Shown here: one piece after another, positions 60,518 through 64,000 of the stretch
Position numbering within the stretch: the first letter of the stretch is position 1
Layout: each line of letters begins with the position of its first letter
Assembly (NCBI GenBank): GCA_020073165.1
Contig: JAIQFP010000012.1
Span: 62,001-126,000, forward strand
DNA: 64,000 nt
Source: Terriglobia bacterium
GTDB lineage: Bacteria > Acidobacteriota > Terriglobia > Terriglobales > Acidobacteriaceae
Reading direction: 5' to 3'
The notes under the pieces: generated by a model
What the model was told of the DNA's origin: nothing
Databases searched by the model: none
The model's input: the letters and a program-made list of their open reading frames with translations, nothing else
Translations under genes and position numbers: made by a program

Positions 60518-60549
60518 GATTGCCAATTGGAAATCGGCAATTGACAATC
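60518..60549. repeat. AT-rich inverted repeat upstream of the MFS gene
   Basis: GATTGCCAATT (60518-60528) and AATTGACAATC (60539-60549) are inverted copies with one mismatch. Similar CCAATTG/GATTGAAG sequence lies near 26345 and 58680, so this is another dispersed intergenic element. Confidence 0.5.
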
Positions 60550-60555
60550 GTGCGA

Positions 60556-61824
60556 ATGGCAAGCCTCACCCTGACGCTTTCCCAGATCACTTCCGCTCAA
60601 CGCCGCACTCTGCTTGCCGCCGCTCTCGGCTGGATGCTTGATGCTTTTGACGCCATGCTCTACGCCCTGGTGCTGACGCATGTCATGCGCGATCTGGGCA
60701 TGAGCAAGGCTACCTCTGGATTTCTCTACACGCTCACGTTGCTCGCTTCGGGAATCGGCGGCGTGTTGTTCGGATTCATCGCCGACCGCATCGGACGCAA
60801 GCGCGCCCTCATGCTTAGCATCCTGACCTATTCGGTCTGCTCGTTCGCTTCCGGTCTCTCTACGACCGTGCTCATGCTGGCCGTATTCCGTTTCATCCTT
60901 GGCTTGGGAATGGGAGGCGAGTGGAACACCGGCGCAACCCTGGTCGCGGAAACCTGGCCCACCGAGTTGCGGGCCAAGGCCCTCGCCCTGGTACAGAGTT
61001 CGTGGGCCATCGGTTACGCGTTCGCGGCCCTCGTCGCCGGTATCGTGCTGCACTACGCTGACTGGCGGATGGTGTTCTTTGTTGGAATCCTGCCGGCGCT
61101 GGTAACGCTGTGGATTCAGAAAGGCGTCCCCGAATCCGAGATGTGGCAGGAGCATCACCGCATGGCCGAGGAGTCCAAGCGTGTTGCTTACGCCCAGCAA
61201 AAGTACGAGCACGACAGCTTTACCCGCATATTTCAGCCACCCTATGTGAAGCACACCTTTGCCCTGCTCTTCATGAATTTCTTTGGCATGTTCGCGTGGT
61301 GGGGACTGTTCACCTGGATTCCCCCGTATCTCTCGCTGCCCCCAGAGCAAGGCGGCCGCGGCTTCAGCGTGATGGGAACAACCACGCTGCTGTTGGTGCT
61401 GAACCTGGTGGGAATGTTCCCCGGATATGCCACCTTCGGCTGGGCGGCCGACTATTTTGGACGTCGTAAGTCTTTCATCCTCTATACGTTCTTGGCTGGT
61501 CTTCTAGTGCCGCTTTATGCCATGGCGCGAAGCCCCCAAGCCCTGCTCGTACTCGGCACCGTGGTTGCGTTTTTTGGTACGGGATTCTTTTCTGGGTCCT
61601 CCATCATCGGCAGCGAGATTTTTCCCACGCGGGTACGGGCCCGGGCTTTGGGTTTCACCTACAACGGTGCCCGTGCCATGAGTTCGGTGGCGCCCTGGGT
61701 GATCGGGCGAGCGGGGCAGGTCAAGGGTCTGAGTTGGGCGTTCTACCTTTGCGCAGCATCGTTCCTGCTGGCCGCATTGACGGCCACGCAGTTGCCGGAG
61801 ACGAAGGGCAAGACTTTGGAGTGA
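60556..61824 (+). CDS. major facilitator superfamily metabolite transporter
   Basis: A 422-residue protein with twelve predicted helices. Helix 1 has LGWMLDAFDAMLYALVLTHVM with the aspartate typical of the aromatic acid/organic acid:proton symporters (AAHS-like); the loop 2-3 motif is GFIADRIGRKRALML, and the repeat in the second half is GWAADYFGRRKSFILY. ATG 60556 is the natural start; it lies 54 bp after the GNAT gene with an inverted repeat in between. Likely uptake of a carboxylate or aromatic acid. The substrate is not indicated. Confidence 0.86.
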   Translation: MASLTLTLSQITSAQRRTLLAAALGWMLDAFDAMLYALVLTHVMRDLGMSKATSGFLYTLTLLASGIGGVLFGFIADRIGRKRALMLSILTYSVCSFASGLSTTVLMLAVFRFILGLGMGGEWNTGATLVAETWPTELRAKALALVQSSWAIGYAFAALVAGIVLHYADWRMVFFVGILPALVTLWIQKGVPESEMWQEHHRMAEESKRVAYAQQKYEHDSFTRIFQPPYVKHTFALLFMNFFGMFAWWGLFTWIPPYLSLPPEQGGRGFSVMGTTTLLLVLNLVGMFPGYATFGWAADYFGRRKSFILYTFLAGLLVPLYAMARSPQALLVLGTVVAFFGTGFFSGSSIIGSEIFPTRVRARALGFTYNGARAMSSVAPWVIGRAGQVKGLSWAFYLCAASFLLAALTATQLPETKGKTLE

Positions 61825-61887: not shown

Positions 61888-62847
61888 CTACTCAATCGGC
61901 TCCACCACCGTCAGCTCTTCGTGCAGCTTCCGGTCCGGCATTTGCACTACGACAATCGCCGCTAGCACAATTACAATCCCGACGGTTTGCAAGGGCTTCA
62001 TGGTTTCTCCTAGGGCGACCGCCGCGATCACGATGGAAAACACCGGCTCCAGACAACTGGCCACAATCGCGCGTGTCGGCTCCAGATGCTGTAGTCCCGC
62101 GAAATACAGTGAAAATGGTCCCAGCACCGACAGCAGCGAAAATACCAGCAGGAACAGCCACTGCCCCGCGGCGTAATGCGCTGCAACCACTTTCCACGGC
62201 GGATTCACGATGATCCAAAAGGCCGAAGCCGCCACCAGCGTCCACAGGAGCACGACCCAGCGGTCGTAGCGCGCGAGAATGCTGTGCCCGCCCACGTTGT
62301 AAATAGCAAACGAAAACGCCGCCAGCAGTGCCGCCGTCACCCCGACCGTGTCCAGGCGCAGCTTGCCCGGCCCGATCACCCCGATCACCATCGCACTTCC
62401 CGCCACCGCCAAGCACACCGCAGCCACGCGCTGCACCGTTGCTTTCTGCAACCCGCGCAGGACCATGTAGAGCAGCACCCACACCGGCGCGGTGTATTGC
62501 AGGATGATCGCCGTGGCCACGTTCGTCCGCTGGATGGCGAGGTAATAAAAATAGTTCGAGGCGGCCACGCCCAGAATTCCCAGCAGGAAAATTCGCCCCA
62601 CATCTGCTGCCGGCAGCCGCAGTCGTCCCCAGCCCTGCCGGATGGCCAGCACCGGCAGCAGCACCAACAGCGAAAGCGTGGTGCGGCTCTGGGAAAGAAT
62701 CAGCGGATCGATGGGCTGCAGGGCTTGTCCACCAGGAAGCAAGCGGCCGGTGAAGGCGGCGCGTCCCAGGCTGGCCGCAACTCCCCACAGGAAAGTGGCA
62801 GCGGCGATGCAAACGTAGCCGCGGACGGGATGCGTTCTAGTGGCCAA
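61888..62847 (-). CDS. EamA-family (DMT) transporter
   Basis: The 319-residue protein has ten hydrophobic helices and two EamA repeats: CIAAATFLWGVAASLGRAAF ... YYLAIQRTNVATAIILQYTAPVWVLLYMVL, and ALLAAFSFAIYNVGGHSILARY ... YFAGLQHLEPTRAIVASCLEPVFSIVIAAVALGE. It probably exports a metabolite. The start is TTG at 62847, overlapping the last 11 bases of the glutaredoxin gene, so it may be translationally coupled to it. The shorter DMT pair near hpnJ is from the same superfamily but half-size. Confidence 0.83.
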   Translation of the reverse strand: MATRTHPVRGYVCIAAATFLWGVAASLGRAAFTGRLLPGGQALQPIDPLILSQSRTTLSLLVLLPVLAIRQGWGRLRLPAADVGRIFLLGILGVAASNYFYYLAIQRTNVATAIILQYTAPVWVLLYMVLRGLQKATVQRVAAVCLAVAGSAMVIGVIGPGKLRLDTVGVTAALLAAFSFAIYNVGGHSILARYDRWVVLLWTLVAASAFWIIVNPPWKVVAAHYAAGQWLFLLVFSLLSVLGPFSLYFAGLQHLEPTRAIVASCLEPVFSIVIAAVALGETMKPLQTVGIVIVLAAIVVVQMPDRKLHEELTVVEPIE

Positions 62848-63076
62848 GGAGCTGGTTGAGGCGTTCGCCGTCGAATCCTATCATCACCTCGTCTCCAATG
62901 ACGACGGTGGGGGTGGAACGGCTGCCGTACTTGTAGACTAGGTCCTGCACCGCATCCTGGTCACTACTGACATCGCGATCTTGGTACGCGATTCCTTTCC
63001 CCGAGAGGTACGCCCGGACTGTGTGGCACGGGGGTCAGCCGGGTTGAGTAAAGAGAACAATCTTTGGGTTCGTCAT
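62837..63076 (-). CDS. glutaredoxin-like protein with in-frame TGA at the first catalytic Cys: likely selenoprotein
   Basis: Read through one TGA, this 79-residue frame runs from ATG (63074-63076) to TAG (62837-62839): MTNPKIVLFTQPG, then TGA (63035-63037), then PPCHTVRAYLSGKGIAYQD, KYGSRSTPTVVIGDEVMIGFDGERLNQLL. The glutaredoxin markers are all there: TQPGxPPC, the TP cis-proline loop and GFD near the end. The stop falls exactly on the first Cys of CPPC, giving UPPC. No other stop or frame change is seen. Selenocysteine in this position is known for some bacterial glutaredoxins. Lying 25 bp after an OsmC gene fits redox defence. A sequencing error or pseudogene is the alternative. No sel genes are in the window. 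Confidence 0.78.
62999..63034 (-). promoter_or_regulatory. possible bacterial SECIS element
   Basis: Directly after the TGA, CCCCG (bases 2-6) can pair with CGGGG (bases 32-36), with an inner TGCC/GGCG stem and a ten-base apical loop holding GT at bases 16-17 after the TGA. A stem-loop with G in the loop at about this distance is what SelB requires. The 3' bulge is large, so the fold is only suggestive. Confidence 0.3.
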
Positions 63077-63101: not shown

Positions 63102-63500
63102 TTACTCAGCGTACTCGATCTCGAAGCTGATCTTCGCTGTCTTCTGCAGCATGGCCGAAACCGAGCAGTACTTTTCTTCCGACAGCCGCACTGCATCTTC
63201 CACTGCTTTATGGGATACTTTTCCGCCCACCCGGTAGATCAGCTTGATCTCAGTATAGACAGAAGGCGGATTGGCCGCCCGTTCCGCCAGGGCACGTACT
63301 TCCAGGCTGGTAAAGGGCTCACGCTTCTTGCGCAGAATGCTGGCGACGTCGTAACCGGTGCATCCACACAAACCGATTAACACCAGTTCCATCGGGCTGC
63401 CGGCAGTTCTCTTGTCTCCGTCCACCACAACACTGTGCCCGCTGCTCGCTTCCGCAACGAATCGGAAATTGTCTACCCAGATGGCTTTGGCTTCAGTCAT
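63102..63500 (-). CDS. OsmC-family peroxiredoxin-like protein
   Basis: The 132-residue protein has the OsmC fold with one active cysteine in MELVLIGLCGCTGYDVASILRKKREP, the start region AIWVDNFRFVAEASSGHSVVVD, and EKYCSVSAMLQKTAKISFEIEYAE with the second cysteine. This YhfA-like subgroup reduces organic hydroperoxides. Its neighbour is the selenocysteine-type glutaredoxin, which may act in the same pathway. Start ATG at 63500. Confidence 0.88.
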   Translation of the reverse strand: MTEAKAIWVDNFRFVAEASSGHSVVVDGDKRTAGSPMELVLIGLCGCTGYDVASILRKKREPFTSLEVRALAERAANPPSVYTEIKLIYRVGGKVSHKAVEDAVRLSEEKYCSVSAMLQKTAKISFEIEYAE

Positions 63501-63538: not shown

Positions 63539-64000
63539 CTACCTCCGGTTGTCGGTCTGCGGTTCGGGATGAATGAGCACGCGGAACAATTCTGGCGCTT
63601 CCTGCTTGAAGCGGATCTCCAGTTCGGTCTGAATGTCGTGCACCCGTGAAAGCGGCATTTCGTCCGACAGGGTGCAGTGGCAGGAAACGTACAAGCGCCC
63701 GCGCACTCGCTTGAGCAGCACGTCGTGCATATCCAGGATTTCGGGGAATTCTTTCGCGGCGGCGGTTAAGCGCTTCTCCAATTTGGCGTCACGCACCATT
63801 TCATCGCCCGTCTCGATGGTCGCCGGCTCACTCTCAATGTGGGTCAGGATAGAGGAGATTTCCGGCACTTCCCGCTGGATTTCCGCTTCCAGCACAGTCA
63901 CCCGGTCATGCGCTTCCTTCAGACTCAGGCGCTCGTCCAGTTCCAGGTGCTGTTCCACGTGCAATTGACCGCTCAGGTCTTGCACGCTGACATCGTGCAC
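63539..64000 (-). CDS. cation diffusion facilitator (CDF) transporter, C-terminal part with two dimerisation domains
   Basis: The frame is open to the window edge, so the membrane part is missing. Visible are two copies of the cytoplasmic ZT-dimer domain: VQDLSGQLHVEQHLELDERLSLKEAHDRVTVLEAEIQREVPEISSILTHIE and LLKRVRGRLYVSCHCTLSDEMPLSRVHDIQTELEIRFKQEAPELFRVLIHPEP. CDF proteins export zinc, iron or manganese. Two dimer domains in tandem are less common than one. The stop is at 63539. Confidence 0.8.
   Translation of the reverse strand: MHDVSVQDLSGQLHVEQHLELDERLSLKEAHDRVTVLEAEIQREVPEISSILTHIESEPATIETGDEMVRDAKLEKRLTAAAKEFPEILDMHDVLLKRVRGRLYVSCHCTLSDEMPLSRVHDIQTELEIRFKQEAPELFRVLIHPEPQTDNRR

Follow-up and report, generated by a model that had tools for sequence, protein, structure and literature searches.

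The window, meaning the whole 64,000-nucleotide stretch of DNA analyzed here, closes with four genes on the minus strand. The first, a CDF-type cation transporter at 63539..64000, runs off the window and is represented by its C-terminal part (PF16916 ZT_dimer, 9.5e-21). It lies upstream of an OsmC/YhfA-family protein at 63102..63500 (PF02566, 4.1e-16), which has two conserved cysteines (GLCGCT and KYCSVS) and sits directly upstream of a small redoxin gene at 62837..63076. The last gene is an EamA-family transporter at 61888..62847 (PF00892, 3.1e-33), which, from its listed TTG start, overlaps the 3' end of the redoxin gene. An MFS transporter gene at 60520-61824 is convergent with the EamA gene, an arrangement kept in many relatives (e.g., L009, L012 and L016).

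The redoxin gene is composed of 79 codons and a TAG stop. It contains a single in-frame TGA at 63037-63035 on the minus strand, the predicted selenocysteine (Sec) codon, which is read directly from the sequence, is conserved in some homologues and is replaced by Cys in others. With TGA translated as U, the frame from 63076 to 62837 (-) gives MTNPKIVLFTQPG-U-PPCHTVRAYLSGKGIAYQDRDVSSDQDAVQDLVYKYGSRSTPTVVIGDEVMIGFDGERLNQLLGH, a product of 79 residues followed by TAG. The TGA occupies the first catalytic position of the active site (U14-P-P-C17), in the context TQPG-U-PPC. The mechanical ORF list of the window does not include this frame. Sequence and list therefore agree with the initial annotation, which had described a minus-strand frame interrupted by one TGA at the first catalytic Cys, which ordinary gene calling would split. 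When Cys is put in place of the TGA, the product matches PF00462 (Glutaredoxin) at 58.8 bits, against a Pfam gathering cut-off of 22.9. The AlphaFold2 model has a thioredoxin-type fold with a pLDDT of 93.4.

The initial annotation had called this protein a glutaredoxin. The PF00462 match and the UxxC site bear this out, but thioredoxin-like proteins of the YruB/BC3987 type are closer to it than the glutathione-dependent glutaredoxins. The nearest solved structure by profile is BC3987 of Bacillus cereus (1.1e-26), which is also the best PDB fold match of the model (3zij; TM-score 0.89, 51% identity over 73 columns). BC3987, which is thioredoxin-like and has a CPPC site, stands in a group of its own next to the NrdH and Cp9/YruB redoxins (PMC3720550). 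Both proteins have a thioredoxin fold and a Pro-Pro between the catalytic residues, whereas BC3987 (PDB 3ZIJ) has Cys where the window redoxin has Sec and comes from a different phylum. The best NCBIfam match is GlrX_YruB (TIGR02196), at 84.6 bits with C for U, under the curated 88.55. Like the YruB/Cp9 proteins, the window redoxin is a small single-domain protein, and TIGR02196 is matched by all 30 members; the commonest Cp9 motif, however, is CP[YW]C rather than UPPC. The Uxx-star families are likewise small glutaredoxin-like selenoproteins, and all three score under their curated cut-offs (NF041212, 58.1 vs 66; NF041211, 50.6 vs 100; NF041114, 32.1 vs 72). NrdH-redoxin (TIGR02194) also misses its cut-off, at 43.7 vs 85.75 bits, and the window protein has UPPC instead of C-[VMI]-Q-C. 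Judged by sequence and profile comparison, the redoxin is nearest to the CPPC BC3987 and YruB-type redoxins and not to the GSH-type glutaredoxins. Selenocysteine glutaredoxin (UxxC) is listed among the known prokaryotic selenoproteins (PMC1794560; PMC13188914). The window redoxin shares with it the PF00462 domain, a UGA-coded Sec first in UxxC and sel genes in the genome; it differs in its UPPC site, its YruB/BC3987-like sequence and its CDF-OsmC-EamA neighborhood in Acidobacteriota. It is thus very likely a selenoprotein of an already known kind. A search of open-licence papers found no description of the UPPC acidobacterial group.

The assembly that contains the window is 4.6 Mb in 35 contigs and is listed as 100% complete. 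It encodes SelA, SelB (370.7 bits by profile search), SelD (341.5 bits over both pieces) and a tRNA-Sec that scores 70.3 bits with Rfam and is called tRNA-SeC with anticodon tca by ARAGORN. The four genes selA, selB, selC and selD, whose presence had been predicted from the TGA, are all found. The Rfam tRNA-Sec and SelB profiles give a weak signal even in control genomes that have no Sec system. SelB was therefore counted solely above its cut-off, and the tRNA of this genome was checked with ARAGORN. The selD gene of the same genome has its own in-frame TGA near the N-terminus, AAG-U-ASKL (L067:1531-1533; G000:C2, about 127717), with a stable hairpin downstream. SelD is thus a probable second selenoprotein of this genome.

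The redoxin was followed through 101 genomes, composed of 100 relatives and the window genome itself. In 25 of them a close homologue has TGA, and in 7 it has Cys instead. The codons were read at 30 fetched loci, with the TGA in G015 and G081 taken from stop counts instead. Wherever the locus was fetched, TGA falls at the same active-site codon. A comparison of homologues at this position had been proposed at the outset, and it returned TGA or TGC/TGT, never TAA or TAG. Among named genomes, TGA is found in Terriglobia, Korobacter and Angelobacter MAGs, and Cys in Silvibacterium, Acidipila and Paracidobacterium. SelB scores above the curated cut-off in 25/25 TGA genomes vs 1/7 Cys genomes (G033), with a Fisher p of 7.7e-6 that ignores relatedness; all statistical tests here treat related sequences as independent. 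One Cys genome, G030, has SelA and a strong tRNA-Sec together with no SelB above the cut-off, and this absence may reflect a gap in the assembly. In two TGA genomes that are both about 90% complete (G002 and G008), SelA and SelB are present and the tRNA-Sec is not clearly above the tRNA-Ser-like background. No relatives were found in viral contigs.

In a tree of 67 rows and few columns, the Cys forms L022 (from G030), L088/L090 and L031 are nested among Sec forms, and a large Cys clade stands separate; L031 is a long branch whose placement is unsure. On these alignments, the nested Cys forms would fit about three Sec-to-Cys changes. More distant TGA redoxins with UIFC, UMFC, UHFC, UGAC and UAAC sites (L032, L110, L112, L123 and L124) belong to other Acidobacteriota families and Chloroflexota and lie outside the CDF-OsmC-EamA neighborhood. 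Another locus, L113:4001-4171 from a gp1 Acidobacteria MAG, has a redoxin with TGA whose site reads UPLS, without the second Cys, and whose frame closes at another in-frame TGA, beside intact CDF and OsmC genes. This redoxin is a decaying or misassembled copy.

In bacteria, the published bSECIS model has a loop of 3-9 nt with an early G, a spacing of 16-37 nt, a stem of 4-16 bp and an energy of -7.5 kcal/mol or lower (PMC13188914). The 34 distinct UPPC TGA sequences have a six-pair hairpin at a fixed place, with its loop 32 nt past the TGA. Of the resulting 204 cells (34 sequences, 6 pairs), 99% are paired, and three of the pairs have double-sided changes (CG to UA, UA to GC and CG to AU). The covariation score is 0.201 vs 0.078 +/- 0.013 for shuffled alignments; 0/500 shuffles reach it, and it lies above all slid controls. 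Synonymous resampling indicates that the pairing exceeds coding constraint in almost all relatives. Most relatives fall within the published model, and energies of -8 to -9 kcal/mol are found in most relatives. The hairpin is reduced and mostly lost in the Cys forms (Mann-Whitney p = 6e-14). L022, the Cys form within the Sec group, still folds a downstream hairpin, which is what a recent change from Sec to Cys would leave.

A bSECIS search of 62990-63037 had been proposed at the outset. The conserved hairpin of the TGA homologues does lie there, but the window's own copy falls short of the stem and energy limits. The predicted hairpin, CCUCUC-GGG-GAAAGG at 62994..63008 (-), places its apical loop 32 nt downstream of the TGA. 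The loop is GGG here and GGA, GGC or GGG among relatives. Loop and spacing lie within the bSECIS model, whereas stem and energy do not. An AGA to AAA change breaks the fourth pair, leaving a C-A mismatch of 63005 with 62997, so that the stem has 2 bp, a mismatch and 3 bp at -1.6 kcal/mol. The energy of this hairpin is no better than that of synonymous resampling (pMFE 0.67), and its fixed-register pairing is better (5/6 pairs, p 0.036). An energy test of 60 nt against dinucleotide shuffles was uninformative even for the sister species with its perfect stem, and reliance was therefore placed on fixed-register pairing with synonymous resampling and on covariation. An Rfam scan around the redoxin gene gave no match; its library may lack models of this hairpin type. 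An alternative fold of the window RNA, CCCCG/CGGGG, was set aside as a SECIS because its inner loop misfits the published model. The defect in the hairpin is regarded as a real weakness for how efficiently Sec is inserted in the window species, and the identity of the gene is not put in doubt by it.

Standard gene calling ends the frame at the TGA, and the case for a selenoprotein is built from sequence, so the TGA might be a true stop, a sequencing error or the mark of a pseudogene, with no full-length product. A true stop would leave the sequence beyond it unprotected. Compared with the sister species, the only other genome that represents the genus, the 60 codons 3' of the TGA have 4/3/11 substitutions by codon position, mostly at the third, with dN 0.052, dS 0.324 and dN/dS 0.16. 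This purifying selection makes a true stop unlikely. The same TGA also recurs in dozens of independently assembled genomes, with neither TAA nor TAG in the aligned codon, and it co-occurs with SelB and with a covarying hairpin; a stop, error or pseudogene is hardly credible. The frame would be equally open if TGA specified any other residue, such as Trp, through general recoding or suppression. Homologues, however, place Cys here instead of Trp, the genome has a tRNA-Sec with anticodon tca, and the distribution of SelB follows that of the TGA forms. Such a reading is just as improbable.

A further explanation accepts an ancestral selenoprotein and holds that the SECIS has decayed in the window species, with UGA mostly terminating and the redoxin poorly made or being lost. 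Within the UPPC TGA set no hairpin is weaker than that of the window, which has a C-A mismatch and -1.6 kcal/mol vs a perfect hairpin of -8.0 kcal/mol in the sister species. The two base changes affect the protein as well, replacing E-R by G-K. Against decay, the hairpin retains 5/6 pairs and the loop GG, and another intact gene, L011, likewise has an imperfect hairpin. The frame is otherwise intact under the constraint seen against the sister species, although a very recent loss would be compatible with that comparison. Decay is therefore quite unlikely. The redoxin gene encodes, with high probability, a genuine selenoprotein: the sel genes, the TGA-or-Cys homologues and the conserved hairpin all agree on the reading proposed by the initial annotation.

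The order CDF, OsmC, redoxin and EamA on one strand is shared by the window and most family members. EamA is downstream of the redoxin in 32/34 distinct UPPC TGA forms (all except L014 and L029), and OsmC, which keeps both cysteines throughout the relatives, is near it in 27/34. The other 7 have no OsmC nearby, so any partnership between the two is not obligate. EamA and CDF are retained beside the nested Cys forms L022, L088 and L090, and no CDF, OsmC or EamA lies near the redoxin in the main acidobacterial Cys clade (L025-L028, L030 and relatives). The proposal that OsmC and EamA form a redox module with the redoxin holds as conserved synteny, while their functional coupling is hypothetical.

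In the proposed mechanism, SelA, SelD and tRNA-Sec(UCA) would supply the Sec-tRNA, and SelB, docked on the hairpin immediately 3' of the UGA, would deliver it, so that UGA is read as Sec14. The resulting redoxin would have 79 residues and the active site U-P-P-C, with the selenolate as the attacking nucleophile and Cys17 as the residue that resolves the mixed selenenyl-sulfide. Electrons for re-reducing the oxidized redoxin would most likely come from NADPH-thioredoxin reductase, on the pattern of CPPC/NrdH-like redoxins, and not from glutathione. A thioredoxin reductase is present in the genome (376 bits), and a profile search for the glutathione synthetase ATP domain PF02955 found no match there. 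On these two grounds, thioredoxin reductase is preferred as the electron donor, an assignment that is somewhat favored. Cp9 relays electrons from a TrxR-like enzyme to peroxiredoxin (PMC3720550). The client of the window redoxin could plausibly be a thiol peroxidase such as the neighboring OsmC, though OsmC itself is a doubtful candidate. More speculative still is the combined picture of a UPPC BC3987/YruB-type selenoprotein subfamily, widespread in one acidobacterial family, that would serve as the dedicated reductant of the adjacent OsmC peroxidase in the CDF-OsmC-redoxin-EamA locus, with a SECIS that works despite its broken pair.

The gene escapes ordinary ORF calling, and a conserved redox protein is therefore probably absent from many acidobacterial annotations. 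The family spans Sec forms, recent replacements by Cys and an imperfect SECIS. This natural series is useful for testing how much SECIS structure is required by SelB, and for asking why some members retain Sec and others lose it.
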